A stretch of DNA of 42,605 nt from Limosilactobacillus sp. (GTDB lineage: Bacteria; Bacillota; Bacilli; Lactobacillales; Lactobacillaceae), in contig JAUMUE010000010.1 of the NCBI GenBank assembly GCA_030530845.1, positions 2,192 to 44,796 on the forward strand, given 5' to 3'. The translations under genes were made by a program, and so were the position numbers. The notes under the pieces are model-generated. The model ran no database searches. It saw only the letters and a program-made list of their open reading frames with translations, and was not told the origin of the DNA. The first letter of the stretch is position 1. Each line of letters opens with the position of its first letter. This document shows, piece by piece, positions 5,423 to 30,468 of this stretch.

Positions 5423-5460
5423 AAAATGCCATTTGAGAAACATCTCAAATGGCATTTTTT
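5423..5460 (+). terminator. Intrinsic terminator after pnuC
   Basis: Perfect 16-bp stem (5423-5438 with 5443-5458), loop AACA and a six-base T-run. It also lies downstream of the convergent dehydrogenase gene. Confidence 0.92.
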
Positions 5461-5475
5461 GTTTCACGTGAAACA
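5460..5475. promoter_or_regulatory. parS site (ParB binding), exact consensus match
   Basis: TGTTTCACGTGAAACA is a perfect 16-bp palindrome equal to the Bacillus-type parS consensus TGTTNCACGTGAAACA. It lies between convergent genes, immediately after the pnuC terminator. parS sites nucleate ParB (Spo0J) complexes and are concentrated near oriC in Firmicutes. Confidence 0.85.
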
Positions 5476-7940: not shown

Positions 7941-8204
7941 TTAGTGCAAGGCAGTAAAGAAAGTAATGAAACCAAAGATAACACCTGGGAAATTAGCTAC
8001 GAAGATGGCCCAGTCACGTTCCTTCTTGAAGTATGCGTAAATTGACCAAAGAGTACAGTTAACACCAGCTACGAATGGTTGAAGTGGTGCACAGTACGCT
8101 CCGTTCAAGTTGTTTTGAATTTGCGGAATGTATGAAACGTACATACAAACAGCGATAATACTTGCAACAATGCTTAAAACCCGGATAAATTTACTTTCAT
8201 TCAT
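7941..8204 (-). CDS. SemiSWEET (PQ-loop) sugar transporter, canonical copy
   Basis: An 87-aa protein with three hydrophobic helices, the size of bacterial SemiSWEETs, which dimerise to make a sugar-conducting channel-like carrier. The PQ-loop hinge P27-Q28 (SYIPQIQNN) is intact, and the helix 2 and 3 signature residues are present (VNCTLWSIYAY with N49 and W53; NFPGVIFGF with N71). AAGGAGAG precedes the start. It is the third gene of an operon with pgi and fructokinase (31-bp gap), so it probably moves the unphosphorylated hexose that the kinase traps. Direction of transport and the exact sugar are not shown by the sequence. Confidence 0.88.
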   Translation of the reverse strand: MNESKFIRVLSIVASIIAVCMYVSYIPQIQNNLNGAYCAPLQPFVAGVNCTLWSIYAYFKKERDWAIFVANFPGVIFGFITFFTALH

Positions 8205-8235: not shown

Positions 8236-9114
8236 TTATTCAGTGGCAGCCTTTAATGCCAAGGCAAAGTCACCGATAGTAGCAGAACCATTATTCTTAG
8301 CTAATGGCATCGTGATGTATTCATCAACATCCCCAACTTCTACATAATCGTTGAGTAACTTCTTGAATTCGGCACGAACCTTCTTCAAGAATTCTTCACT
8401 GACAACCCCACCACCAAAGATGATTTGGCCTGGGCGGAACATCAGTGTACAGTCAACGGCTGCTTGAGCAACGTAGTAAGCCATGATGTCCCAAGTGTGG
8501 TCTGTCAATGGAACATCCTTTCCCTTCTTGCCTGTACGTGCTTCAAAGGTTGGACCACTTACCAACCCTTCCAAACAGTCACCATGGAAAGGACAGATAC
8601 CCTTAAAGTCGAGGTCATCTGGGTGACGCTTCAGCCGAATGTGACCCATTTCTGGGTGGCCTAATTCACCGACGAACTTGCCGTCGATAACAGCACCGGC
8701 ACCACAACCGGTACCAATGGTGTAGTAAACCAGGGAGTTGATACGCTTGTTGAAGAGAGTCGACAATACGTATTCACCGTAAGCAGAACCGTTTACGTCA
8801 GTGGTCCATGCAATTGGAATATTGAAGTGCTTCTTGAATGGTCCGATGAAGTCCGTGTCTGACCAACCTGGCTTTGGTGTGTTGGTGATGTAACCGTACT
8901 TAGGTGAGCTCTTACGGATTTCGATTGGGCCAAATGAAGCGATACCAATTGCGGAAAGTTGGTCCTTGTATTGGTCGAACCATTCAATACATTTTTGAAT
9001 AGTTTCTTCAGGAGTGGTAGTTGGAATGTGAATTGAATCTTGAATTTGGTAGTTGATGTTACCTACAGCACAAACGAACTTGGTCCCACCAGCTTCAATA
9101 CTTCCTAATAACAT
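8236..9114 (-). CDS. ROK-family fructokinase
   Basis: 292-aa ROK sugar kinase that phosphorylates fructose with ATP. Visible features: N-terminal phosphate loop SIEAGGTKFVC, catalytic D106 (TTDVNGSA), GTGCGAG phosphate binding (134-140) and the zinc motif H158...C174-x2-H177-x2-C180. The compact length and the sequence around FGPIEI and ITNTPKPGW fit the ROK fructokinase (ScrK/GmuE-like) branch better than glucokinases of ~320 aa, but glucose or mannose activity cannot be excluded. It lies 28 bp after pgi and 31 bp before SemiSWEET, giving uptake, phosphorylation and isomerisation in one operon. AGGGGG stands 8 nt before the ATG. Confidence 0.9.
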   Translation of the reverse strand: MLLGSIEAGGTKFVCAVGNINYQIQDSIHIPTTTPEETIQKCIEWFDQYKDQLSAIGIASFGPIEIRKSSPKYGYITNTPKPGWSDTDFIGPFKKHFNIPIAWTTDVNGSAYGEYVLSTLFNKRINSLVYYTIGTGCGAGAVIDGKFVGELGHPEMGHIRLKRHPDDLDFKGICPFHGDCLEGLVSGPTFEARTGKKGKDVPLTDHTWDIMAYYVAQAAVDCTLMFRPGQIIFGGGVVSEEFLKKVRAEFKKLLNDYVEVGDVDEYITMPLAKNNGSATIGDFALALKAATE

Positions 9115-9142: not shown

Positions 9143-10501
9143 TTAGTTGTTCTTTTCCATATCTTCACGGAGTTTCTTACCGATTTCTTCGTAGCCAGGC
9201 TTACCAAGAAGGCCAAACATGTTAGTCTTGTAAGCTTCAACACCTGGTTGGTTGAATGGGTTGATACCGTTCAAGTAACCAGAGATAGCGATTGCCACTT
9301 CAAAGAAGTAAATCAGGTAACCCAGTGTGTATTCATTTTCTTCTGGGATGTGTACAGTCATAACTGGAACACCACCAGCAGTGTGGGCAGCGACAACGGC
9401 TTCGTATGCCTTAGTGTTGGCGAAGTCCATGGTCTTGCCTTCAAGGTATTGGAGTCCGTCAAGGTTGTCTTCTTCGGCAGGAATTTCAACGTCGAAGTTT
9501 GGCTTGTCCAACTTAACAACAGTTTCCATCAAGAAACGGCGACCTTCTTGGATGTATTGACCAAGTGAGTGGAGGTCAGTTGTGAAGTTAGCGCTTGATG
9601 GGTAAATACCCTTTTGATCCTTACCCTCTGATTCGCCGGCTAATTGCTTCCACCATTCAGCGAACATCCGCATGTTTGGTTCGTAGTTTTCCAGCAATTC
9701 AGTTTCGTAACCCTTGCGGTAAAGTATGTTACGGTATGCAGCATATTGGTAAGCTTCGTTCTTTGTAAGGTCAGCGTCTACGTAATCCTTTTCAGCTTGT
9801 GCAGCACCTTCCATCAACTTATCGATGTCAGCGCCAGAAGCTGCGATTGGCAAGAGACCAACTGGGCAAAGAACTGAGTAACGACCACCGACACCATCTG
9901 GAATAACGAAGGTTTCGTAACCATTAGCATCCGCTTCGGTCTTCAGTGCACCGCGCGCCTTATCAGTAGTAGCGTAGATCCGCTTGTTAGCTTCTTCCAA
10001 ACCATACTTTTCGATTAACTTCTTCTTGAAGATCCGGAAAGCAATTGATGGTTCGGTAGTAGTACCAGACTTGGATACAACATTAACTGAGAAGTCGTGG
10101 TCGCCGATCAATTGGAGCAGGTCGTGAACGTAAGTAGAGCTCAGTGAGTTACCTGCAAAGAGAACAAATGGGTACTTGCGGTCTTCTGCGCTTTGAGCTT
10201 GGTAGAAGGTGTTGTGCAAGAAGTCAATTGCCATTTGTGCACCGAGGTAAGAACCACCGATACCGATCACAACCAGGAAGTCTGAGTCAGATTGAATCTT
10301 CTTCGCAGCCTTCTTGATGCGGTCAAATTCTTCCTTGTCATACTCAGTTGGCAAGTGCAACCAATCGCGGAAGTCTGCACCAGCACCAGTTCCGTTACGG
10401 AGTTGGTCGTCAGCAGCCTTAACCATTGCTTGCATTTCGCCAAGTTCGTTGTCATTAACAAATTGCTTTAATCCATGTGAGTCAAATGAAAGATGTGCCA
10501 T
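9143..10501 (-). CDS. pgi: Glucose-6-phosphate isomerase
   Basis: Interconverts glucose-6-phosphate and fructose-6-phosphate in the cytoplasm. The 452-aa protein is the usual length for Firmicute Pgi and shows [13 protein letters not shown] (about 80-92), [15 protein letters not shown] (sugar-phosphate binding), GGRYSVL, and [14 protein letters not shown]. It is first in the operon with fructokinase and SemiSWEET. In a heterofermenter lacking 6-phosphofructokinase, Pgi would run from fructose-6-phosphate to glucose-6-phosphate to feed the phosphoketolase pathway. Its promoter shares a palindrome with the divergent second SemiSWEET gene and a cre-like site overlaps its -10 region. Confidence 0.97.
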
Positions 10502-10570
10502 AATACGCTCTCTTCTTTCTAGTTTTTTTATAAATTATAGGCCAAATTTGTTACTTTGTTAACGATATTT

Positions 10571-10586
10571 ATGATAGCGCTTACTA
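10571..10586. promoter_or_regulatory. cre-like site (CcpA) over the pgi -10 region
   Basis: ATGATAGCGCTTACTA matches the cre pattern WTGNAANCGNWNNCWW with one mismatch. It covers the predicted pgi -10 (TATCAT on the minus strand, 10576-10571), a position expected to cause carbon catabolite repression. Confidence 0.6.
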
Positions 10587-10599
10587 TACAAAATGTCAA
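10571..10599 (-). promoter_or_regulatory. Promoter of the pgi-fructokinase-SemiSWEET operon
   Basis: On the minus strand TTGACA (10599-10594) lies in the left arm of the 18-bp palindrome and TATCAT (10576-10571) follows after a 17-bp spacer. Confidence 0.75.
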
Positions 10600-10610
10600 C
10601 CGGTTGACAT
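10593..10610. promoter_or_regulatory. 18-bp palindromic operator, LacI-family type, shared by divergent promoters
   Basis: ATGTCAACCGGTTGACAT is a perfect palindrome with the central CG typical of LacI-family operators. Each arm supplies a perfect -35 hexamer TTGACA, one for pgi and one for the second SemiSWEET, so a bound repressor would block both. The LacI-type regulator at 22438-23376 is a candidate binder, unproven. Confidence 0.7.
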
Positions 10611-10632
10611 AAAAAAATTATAGATATATTAT
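10604..10632 (+). promoter_or_regulatory. Promoter of the second SemiSWEET gene
   Basis: TTGACA (10604-10609) and TATTAT (10627-10632) are separated by 17 bp. The -35 is the right arm of the palindromic operator. Confidence 0.75.
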
Positions 10633-10700: not shown

Positions 10701-10985
10701 ATGGATAGTCAAAAACCAACACTTAAGCAACGGGTTCGTCTCGTTACTGGTAATATCGCTACTATCGCATGTTTGGTTATGTACTTCTCATACATCGGCC
10801 AAATCATGTCAAACTTTTCTGGTCATCCAGTTTCACCTGTTCAACCATTGTGTGCTGCGGTTAACGCCACATTATGGGTTATCTATGGTTGGGTAAAGCC
10901 TGACAAGAAGGACTGGCCTGTTATCATTGCCAACTTCCCTGGTATTATCTTCGGGTTAGTTACTGGTATCACTGCCATTTTCTAA
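10701..10985 (+). CDS. SemiSWEET-family membrane protein with GQ in place of the PQ motif
   Basis: A 94-aa, three-helix paralogue of the SemiSWEET at 7941. Shared features are the S-Y-I-x-Q helix 1 motif, PVQPLCAAVNATLWVIYGW (N55, W59) and IIANFPGIIFGLVTG (N78). The conserved hinge proline is replaced: SYIGQI (G33-Q34) instead of SYIPQI, as the codon ggc at 10797-10799 shows. This proline lets the helix bend during transport in characterised family members, so transport kinetics or partner choice may differ. The two paralogues could form a hetero-oligomer, an inference. GAAAGGA precedes the start. It is monocistronic with its own terminator. Confidence 0.85.
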   Translation: MDSQKPTLKQRVRLVTGNIATIACLVMYFSYIGQIMSNFSGHPVSPVQPLCAAVNATLWVIYGWVKPDKKDWPVIIANFPGIIFGLVTGITAIF

Positions 10986-22400: not shown

Positions 22401-22440
22401 AAAGGAGCCGCAACAGGCAGAGATGTTGCGGCTCCTTTTA
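22401..22440. terminator. Bidirectional intrinsic terminator
   Basis: Perfect 15-bp stem (22401-22415 with 22424-22438) and T-rich flanks between convergent genes. The 3' arm overlaps the stop region of the LacI-type gene. Confidence 0.9.
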
Positions 22441-23376
22441 TTTATTAAATGTTACTGGTAAGATAACGTTTTCGATTTTGCTCTTAGGTTCTTCAATCCG
22501 CTTAAGAAGAGTTTCAATCAACTTTTCTGCGATTTCAGGGATTGGCTGAACAACAGTTGGTAAGAATGGTGCGATCTTTTGGATAACTTGTGATCCGTCG
22601 TAACCAGTGACGAAGAAGTCCTCGCCCATTCGCTTGCCGTTTTGACGGTAAACAGAGGCGATTTCCAAGGCATTAATATCATTTGATGCAACCACACCAT
22701 CGTAAATGCCAGGGAATGTCTGTGCTAAGTCGATATCCTTAAGGTTCAATGGTTCGAAGCTACGACTTTCTTCGGTCAGCTTGTCAAGAACCCCTTGCAG
22801 ACGGTTCAGAGTTGGTGAAGCAGAAGTATCTTCATCGACAACGACTGCAATGTGGCGAACATCATGTTTCAGCAAGTATTCAACCGCCATTCGTCCGCCA
22901 TTATAGTTATCTGATGAGACGATGGGAATATCGTCGGACAGGTAACGGTCAAATGACACGATCGGTGCTGAACTTTGATTGTATTCTTCAACATCGAGGT
23001 TGTGAGAACTAGAGATAATCCCGTCAACTTGGTTTGCCAGCAGCATGTTCAAATATTCATGCTCAATTTCTGGATTTTCCGCTGAAGAAGCGATGATTGT
23101 CTTGTAGCCCTTACTGAAGAGTTGAGTTTCAATTTCATTACCCAATTCCGCAAAGAAGGGGTTTTTCAAATTAGGGAAAATCAAGCCAATAAACTTGGAA
23201 GGCTTCCCCTGCATCGCACGTGCCAATGCGTTGGGTTGGTAATTCAATTGACGCATCGCTTCGTGGACTTTATTTATTGTTTTTTCACTTAATGAACCAT
23301 AATTATTAATCACGCGTGAGACAGTTGTAATGGACACTCCCGCTAGTGCCGCAACGTCTTTTAACTTCGCTACCAT
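22438..23376 (-). CDS. LacI-family transcriptional regulator (ScrR/RbsR-like)
   Basis: 312-aa repressor. The N-terminal helix-turn-helix and hinge are classic (KLKDVAALAGVSITTVSRVINN; RQLNYQPNALARAM), followed by a periplasmic-binding-like sugar domain with IGLIFPNLKNPFFAEL, PIVSFDRYLSDDIPIVSSDNYNGG and FFVTGYDGS. The core looks closest to sucrose or ribose repressors. At 312 aa it is slightly short of the usual 330. No sugar gene adjoins it, so its targets are elsewhere. The CG-centred palindrome at 10593-10610 is the best candidate in this window. No copy of that palindrome lies at its own promoter. Confidence 0.9.
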   Translation of the reverse strand: MVAKLKDVAALAGVSITTVSRVINNYGSLSEKTINKVHEAMRQLNYQPNALARAMQGKPSKFIGLIFPNLKNPFFAELGNEIETQLFSKGYKTIIASSAENPEIEHEYLNMLLANQVDGIISSSHNLDVEEYNQSSAPIVSFDRYLSDDIPIVSSDNYNGGRMAVEYLLKHDVRHIAVVVDEDTSASPTLNRLQGVLDKLTEESRSFEPLNLKDIDLAQTFPGIYDGVVASNDINALEIASVYRQNGKRMGEDFFVTGYDGSQVIQKIAPFLPTVVQPIPEIAEKLIETLLKRIEEPKSKIENVILPVTFNK

Positions 23377-28058: not shown

Positions 28059-28162
28059 TATTTCCCCCTCCGATCGTGTTCATACTTACTTTAATTCTAT
28101 AATACTTGCACGATTCTAGACGATAATCATTGAAAGCTTAACAATCACTTTAGAATTCAATT

Positions 28163-28176
28163 ATTTCCCGGGAAAT
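28163..28176. promoter_or_regulatory. Noc-binding site, exact match
   Basis: ATTTCCCGGGAAAT, a perfect palindrome equal to the B. subtilis Noc-binding site, extended to 16 bp by flanking T and A. It lies in the gap between the two ABC ATPase genes. Noc is a ParB paralogue that links nucleoid position to cell division. Confidence 0.75.
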
Positions 28177-28177
28177 A

Positions 28178-29934: not shown

Positions 29935-30453
29935 TTATCCCTCCTTTAATATATCTACTAACACACTGTGCAGACGATTCAGGATCATATCGCTTTCTTC
30001 AGAATGAACTAGTCCTTCCCTAATCGCCTGGTGTGTGAGAGTCATGACAGCCCACTCTTTCTTATCTAGTGGCAGCAATTTCGAAGGAGCATCCACCTCA
30101 ATTAGTGATTCGTTAATTGTGTAATGACGCTTAAGTAACTCACGGTACTGGCTGTCGTGAACTTGTTCAATAAAATCTGCCACCTGCTTTGTATATTGAT
30201 CAGCACTAAGAATGGTGTGATTACGGATGTCCTTACTGTGTAACTTCAGCAAGGAATCTCGGTAAACATATGTATAAGCATCTTTAATATCTTCAAAATA
30301 CTTATAGAAAGCACCTCGGGCAATACCCGCTTCTTTAACGATTCTCGCCACTTGTGCATTCGCAAGATTATGTTCACTGAATTCGTGCAATAAAGCTTGT
30401 GTGATTAGGTTCTTCTTTTCATCCGACAAGTTTTCAAAAGTTAAGCTTGGCAT
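29935..30453 (-). CDS. TetR-family repressor of the ABC operon
   Basis: 172-aa regulator. The N-terminal helix-turn-helix is clear (ITQALLHEFSEHNLANAQVARIVKEAGIARGAFYKYFEDIKDAYTYVY). The ligand domain is short and helical. The second ATG (30453) is used because AAGGAGGA abuts the first ATG at 30459. It is the first gene of the operon with permease and ATPase, and two TGACA-N3-TGTCA sites lie at its promoter, so autoregulation and substrate-induced export are likely. Confidence 0.92.
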   Translation of the reverse strand: MPSLTFENLSDEKKNLITQALLHEFSEHNLANAQVARIVKEAGIARGAFYKYFEDIKDAYTYVYRDSLLKLHSKDIRNHTILSADQYTKQVADFIEQVHDSQYRELLKRHYTINESLIEVDAPSKLLPLDKKEWAVMTLTHQAIREGLVHSEESDMILNRLHSVLVDILKEG

Positions 30454-30468
30454 AAACATTCCTCCTTA

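Follow-up and report, generated by a model that had tools for sequence, protein, structure and literature searches.

A predicted LacI-family operator common to divergent pgi and SemiSWEET promoters in Limosilactobacillus

The region between pgi and SemiSWEET 2

The sequence analysed here, referred to as the window, is a stretch of 42,605 nucleotides from the draft genome of a Limosilactobacillus species. It carries a minus-strand cluster of genes for glucose-6-phosphate isomerase (pgi), fructokinase (frk) and SemiSWEET 1 (SS1), and a second SemiSWEET gene (SS2) that diverges from it. The features on which the analysis turns are the following.

7941–8204, minus strand: SemiSWEET 1 (MtN3_slv), PF03083 above cut-off
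8236–9114, minus strand: fructokinase ScrK, NF045550 at 417.8 bits (cut-off 400)
9143–10501, minus strand: pgi, glucose-6-phosphate isomerase, PF00342 above cut-off
10571–10576, minus strand: -10 box TATCAT of the predicted pgi promoter, 17-bp spacer to the -35 box
10572–10585, minus strand: cre-like box AGTAAGCGCTATCA, overlapping the pgi -10 box, one mismatch to TGWAANCGNTNWCA
10593–10610, no strand: perfect 18-bp palindrome ATGTCAACCGGTTGACAT, predicted LacI-family operator spanning both -35 boxes, kept in relatives
10594–10599, minus strand: -35 box TTGACA of the predicted pgi-fructokinase-SemiSWEET 1 promoter, inside the palindrome
10604–10609, plus strand: -35 box TTGACA of the predicted SemiSWEET 2 promoter, inside the palindrome
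10627–10632, plus strand: -10 box TATTAT of the predicted SemiSWEET 2 promoter, 17-bp spacer to the -35 box
10701–10985, plus strand: SemiSWEET 2 (MtN3_slv), PF03083 above cut-off
22438–23376, minus strand: LacI-family protein (the window LacI), named as the regulator in an earlier note on this DNA, but improbable in that role at this operator

The palindrome has a CG centre and lies halfway between the start codons of pgi (10501, minus strand) and SS2 (10701, plus strand); counted from its 16-bp core, TGTCAACCGGTTGACA, both aligned start codons are 92 bp away. The earlier note had described TTGACA on each strand of the palindrome and 17-bp spacers leading to TATCAT for pgi and TATTAT for SS2, and these coordinates, letters and distances agree exactly with the sequence. 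Hexamers of the sigma-A type at 17-bp spacing are thus present on both strands and form a candidate divergent promoter pair. At the level of sequence this supports the arrangement that the note had proposed, a predicted LacI-type operator that doubles as two -35 boxes and is common to two promoters placed back to back.

Counting only layouts whose four boxes each deviate at one position at most and whose two spacers are 17 bp long, we find a single one in the window and none in 100 dinucleotide shuffles. The palindrome by itself is not decisive, because the window contains two perfect 18-bp palindromes and its shuffles contain a mean of 0.16 and a maximum of two. A chance palindrome is ruled out by the absence of the layout from all 100 shuffles together with the presence of the motif in 31 of 50 genomes. 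We also considered an RNA hairpin or terminator; no loop is left between the palindrome arms. A -10 box common to both promoters, as in E. coli, is ruled out, as the two -10 boxes are separate (10571–10576 and 10627–10632). Elsewhere in the window, the perfect palindromes TCGTTTCACGTGAAACGA (2434–2451) and TGTTTCACGTGAAACA (5460–5475) resemble parS sites, judged by what we take to be the parS consensus. Another perfect palindrome, TATTTCCCGGGAAATA (28162–28177), lies between two ABC-transporter genes and is perhaps the operator of a TetR-like gene at 29935–30459.

We found pgi and SS2 diverging from the palindrome in seven distinct sequences: the window, L. oris (L024/L052), L. viscerum (L051), L. 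panis (L021/L050) and genomes G029 (L023), G031 (L022) and G014 (L162). The palindrome is kept in relatives with the same gene order, contrary to the loss that the earlier note had named as grounds for refutation. In six of the seven sequences both -10-like hexamers (at most two mismatches) stand at exactly 17 bp. The exception is L. panis DSM 6035, which has TACTTG on the SemiSWEET side beside an apparent deletion relative to G031. Both arms of the G031 palindrome read TTGATA, so the symmetry has been kept through a change in each arm. Both -10 boxes are also present at a dehydrogenase–SS2 pair (L220) in timonensis, which a sucrose phosphorylase gene (849 bits, cut-off 334.4) adjoins. Genes of the SS2 type (at least 132 bits) occur in 15 genomes, with the palindrome within 420 bp upstream in nine and absent there in six; in three of these six (G015, G045 and G046) a LacI gene separates SS2 from the palindrome–pgi unit. 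As side observations, G031 has two pgi copies (L022 and L117) with their own operator variant at each, and the relatives with the pgi–SS2 pair have a conserved block resembling TTAACGNTTT (10553–10567 in the window) close to where pgi transcription is predicted to begin.

The cre-like site that the earlier note had placed over the pgi -10 box has one mismatch to TGWAANCGNTNWCA, which we take to be the cre consensus, and is conserved: a box with at most one mismatch is found in 19 of 23 pgi promoters, compared with 1.5% of shuffles. The same scan elsewhere matched 6/13 for SS2, 7/19 for voc (a glyoxalase-like gene), 4/16 for frk, 1/20 for mdh (a zinc-dehydrogenase gene) and 0/20 for SS1, and by position the SS2 matches are mostly the pgi box read from the other side. 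Two relatives (L161 and L165) instead have the cre-like box on the downstream side of the -10 box. The genome encodes CcpA (475.8 bits, cut-off 442.35) which, with the predicted cre, supports catabolite repression of the pgi side. Further cre-like boxes occur in several pgi leaders.

Operator sites in the genome and across the genus

We scanned the genome with the 16-bp core and used the reversed pattern as control. With at most two mismatches there are six sites compared with none for the control, and with at most three there are 11 compared with three. Three of the six lie inside long open reading frames (window 26738, C36:1263 and C22:1298; C9, C22, C36 and C45 are contigs of the same genome outside the window). 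Three sites are plausible operators, namely those at pgi–SS2, at voc-mdh on C45 (two mismatches in 16 positions) and at yitT on C9. A plausible regulon in this genome comprises pgi-frk-SS1 and SS2 in the window and the voc-mdh-ldh-mfs stretch on C45, with yitT as an uncertain member. The C9 site (C9:75107; L013 9107), a palindrome with one mismatch, precedes a yitT-family gene by 61 bp; GGTTAT (three mismatches) stands at 17 bp, and there is no clear -10 box.

Of 50 Limosilactobacillus genomes, 31 contain the 16-bp core when one mismatch is allowed, and none contains the reversed pattern. The same palindrome also precedes fructokinase, SS1 and the voc-mdh operon, and thus marks a candidate fructose/mannitol regulon; the scans of genome and genus thereby bear out the co-occurrence with other sugar genes to which the earlier note had looked for support. 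The C45 dehydrogenase (C45:8371–9390) matches PF08240 and PF00107 above cut-off, as expected of a zinc-dependent alcohol dehydrogenase, and alcohol dehydrogenase is the only label among the 15 plasmid relatives listed. It presumably resembles the mannitol dehydrogenase of lactic acid bacteria, from which we take the mannitol name, and the dehydrogenase of the voc-mdh operon is probably a mannitol dehydrogenase.

From the best matches, rather than as a complete census, we collected at least 62 different sites that are centred on CG and deviate at no more than two positions. Of the 62, 44 lie within 320 bp of the start of a query gene (eleven such genes were used), and the 18 that do not were left out of the side counts. 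The 54 gene-facing sides belong to pgi (21), SS2 (10), voc (10), mdh (6), frk (4), SS1 (2) and yitT (1). Of these 54 sides, 45 have a -10-like hexamer at a distance of exactly 17 bp, compared with 3 of the 26 that face no known gene and 1 of the 8 that face a LacI gene (Fisher p = 6e-10 for the first two, with kinship ignored, so that p values overstate independence, as genomes and sites are related). The -10 box at 17 bp is missing on four of the six mdh sides and three of the ten SS2 sides; in two mdh promoters TATAAT stands one base pair further away, at 18 bp. On the sides without a known gene, TTGACA itself is kept in 17 of 26 cases. The earlier note had called such mirror-image economy uncommon. 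This holds in so far as only some operators appear to be used in both directions, whereas two outward TTGACA boxes are an effect of symmetry and occur in every perfect operator of the regulon.

The L. reuteri genome G036 has no operator site in the genus scan, although the mannitol dehydrogenase of L. reuteri is described as fructose-inducible in the accessible part of PMC5218481, and other wiring therefore exists. On the L. fermentum DR9 plasmid (L222) there is no site with at most three mismatches in 10,270 bases. On this plasmid an SS2-like and an alcohol dehydrogenase gene diverge, with only a degenerate operator core, CGTCAACCGGTTTAGC. A few genes in the collected loci were matched in more than one frame (C45-type LacI gene L163 in G016, dehydrogenase L156 in G009 and voc L174 in G031), which may be real or reflect assembly errors.

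The candidate regulator

The genome encodes seven LacI-domain proteins. The earlier note had assigned the operator to the window LacI. A second protein, encoded on C45 (C45:6728–7717), is 43% identical to it, and the two have a ScrR-like DNA-binding domain in common. We counted proteins as C45-type at 340 bits or more and as window-type at 215–250 bits, the latter checked in seven relatives by fetching the loci. C45-type proteins occur in 30 of the 50 genomes, and a site with at most one mismatch is found in 29 of these 30 compared with 2 of the 20 genomes without one. Those two are G020, which is 66% complete, and L. pontis (G032), which is 99% complete and has a perfect operator at voc-mdh (L118). 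The one C45-type genome without such a site, G039, has sites with two mismatches, and in timonensis (G047), where there is no C45-type LacI, SS2 adjoins a two-mismatch site. Window-type proteins occur in 44 of the 50 genomes, and their presence is unrelated to that of sites, which are found in 27 of the 44 genomes with them and in four of the six without.

Gene neighbourhoods were examined for 36 of the 44 C45-type matches. The gene lies within 550 bp of a site in 23, at 1.2–2.0 kb in six, and in seven there is no site in the fetched stretch; of these seven, two (G021 and G028) are at contig ends and two have a variant palindrome at pgi. There is no CG-centred near-palindrome within 300 bp upstream of the window LacI gene, and none of seven loci around window-type genes in relatives has the motif with at most three mismatches. 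By sequence the window LacI is still a candidate, because it has a canonical recognition-helix core (ITTVSR). It is nevertheless disfavoured by the absence of a palindrome at these loci and by the genome counts, which do not uphold the earlier assignment, and the C45 ScrR-like LacI is probably the regulator. No palindrome lies upstream of the C45 LacI gene in this genome, so no autoregulation is visible. Outside the genus, homologues of the C45 type (E at most 1e-85) are present in 55 of 350 genomes of the family and 15 of 40 genera, and among nine loci from other genera examined with flanks of about 1.5 kb, one (L216) has the palindrome.

Recognition helix and operator also vary together. The usual helix of C45-type proteins is KTTVSR, KTTASR or VTTVSR. 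Five paralogs have a changed helix: KNTASR (G011 and G044), KATVSH (G033) or KATASR (G013 and G017). All five adjoin altered palindromes upstream of voc-mdh or pgi-frk, which read TTTCAACCGGTTGAAA with G011, G044 and G033 and TACAAACCGGTTTACA with G013 and G017. In the last two, where the promoters are TTTACA-17-TATTAT and TTTACA-17-TATGAT, the arm has kept its role as a -35 box, 17 bp from a -10 box. The five helix changes may represent only three independent events.

Predicted regulation and related systems

The arrangement resembles the ScrR/SacR regulons of lactic acid bacteria described in PMC4052901 and PMC2329647, in the parts available, in its even palindrome with a central CG (which PMC4052901 gives for most LacI operators), its position 30–140 bp upstream of starts, its sugar-gene targets and a nearby cre. 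A further likeness is the G at -7, which PMC2329647 gives for the SacR operator of L. plantarum; the palindrome has G at -7 and C at +7 (TGTCAACC/GGTTGACA). It differs in that the targets are pgi, fructokinase, two SemiSWEETs and a dehydrogenase operon, that each half-site doubles as a -35 hexamer, and that the LacI protein falls below every named equivalog cut-off in NCBIfam (best match NF047341, RbsR, 213.8 bits, cut-off 382; TIGR02417, 146.1 bits, cut-off 389.55). The core AACCGGTT does not match the SacR1/SacR2 consensus WNNNNNAACGNNTTNNNNNW given in the available part of PMC7419226, and we therefore call the protein ScrR-like rather than ScrR. In Leuconostoc lactis AV1n, a ScrR gene precedes genes for mannitol dehydrogenase and fructokinase, and this ScrR-type repressor seems to co-regulate both (PMC9875047); the genus is different, and the accessible part of that paper names no operator, pgi or SemiSWEET. 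A single operator is said to govern two divergent transcripts at L. casei levR/levABCDX (cited in PMC2329647, partial text), where regulator and sugar differ. The bidirectional promoters of E. coli, as far as the available text of PMC12825309 describes them, likewise have symmetric elements at which opposing polymerases cannot bind together. They share the -10 box, and the commonest distances between their starts are 10, 18 and 23 bp, whereas here the -35 region is shared and the predicted starts are about 75 bp apart. A local LacI-family regulon with one operator common to divergent promoters is thus of a kind already known, in an economical layout. Searches of the open-access literature turned up no description of this operator, nor of a SemiSWEET belonging to such a regulon; an earlier one may exist in supplements or in RegPrecise.

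We infer, with a probability of about 0.75 for the explanation as a whole, that one operator and the C45 ScrR-like LacI control both promoters, with CcpA acting on the pgi side. The palindrome would supply the -35 box of the pgi-fructokinase-SemiSWEET 1 promoter on one strand and of the SemiSWEET 2 promoter on the other, and the LacI protein would come from elsewhere in the genome, where its gene lies beside a second operator and the voc-mdh operon. Without inducer, one LacI dimer would cover both -35 boxes and block both promoters. The inducer, probably fructose or a derivative, would relieve repression, and both promoters could then fire with polymerases in competition; since two polymerases need overlapping DNA, they should exclude each other. 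On the pgi side, CcpA bound to the cre-like box that overlaps the -10 box would add catabolite repression.

Read together, the genes suggest two fates for fructose, phosphorylation followed by isomerisation or reduction to mannitol, with the SemiSWEETs as possible importers of fructose or exporters of mannitol. The genome has two PTS_EIIC matches, whose best models (beta-glucoside and lactose/cellobiose) are both below cut-off, and a profile search of this 96% complete draft found no EII-Sor, which hints at a non-PTS entry of fructose. The earlier description of SS2 as an uptake protein is a guess, and the physiological role of the SemiSWEET family is called unknown in the available part of PMC5972207.

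It is conceivable but unlikely that the operator is bound by the window LacI as well as the C45 LacI, in which case one might respond to fructose and the other to sucrose. Their DNA-binding domains are similar, and L. pontis combines a window-type LacI and a perfect site with no C45-type LacI, but many genomes with the window type only have no site at all. Nor do we think it probable that the element is mainly a pgi promoter whose SS2-side -35 box is a little-used by-product of operator symmetry: the SS2-side -10 box stands at exactly 17 bp in six of the seven pgi–SS2 pairs, even though L. panis has lost it and arms facing no known gene elsewhere often keep TTGACA without a -10 box. That the window LacI is the repressor, with operator and promoters unchanged, is very improbable; its gene is on the same contig and its ScrR-like domain has the canonical core TTVSR, but there is no palindrome near the gene here or at the seven loci of relatives, and 17 of the 44 genomes with a window-type protein have no site with at most one mismatch while four of the six without one do. 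Ordinary divergent promoters with accidentally mirrored -35 boxes deserve hardly any credence, for although perfect 18-bp palindromes arise by chance at a mean of 0.16 per shuffled window, the motif recurs in 31 of 50 genomes against 0 of 50 for the control, with the same gene set alongside and with covariation of helix and operator.

We tentatively raise a broader possibility. The operator specificity of a LacI protein may have settled on the sigma-A -35 consensus, and every perfect operator would then be a latent two-way promoter, because each half-site is a -35 box. The pgi–SS2 operator would be one that is used both ways, with polymerase exclusion balancing a fructose/mannitol facilitator against fructose catabolism, and the SemiSWEETs would be the fructose or mannitol carriers that these bacteria otherwise seem to lack. 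If this is true, a gene landing beside an operator could become co-regulated at once.

The analysis moves attention from the window LacI to the C45 LacI as regulator, and offers a natural example of a single element that is both a predicted operator and a pair of -35 boxes. For heterofermentative lactobacilli it puts forward a candidate regulator, with its operator and target genes, for the use of fructose and the probable formation of mannitol, and it places two SemiSWEETs in a fructose/mannitol context.
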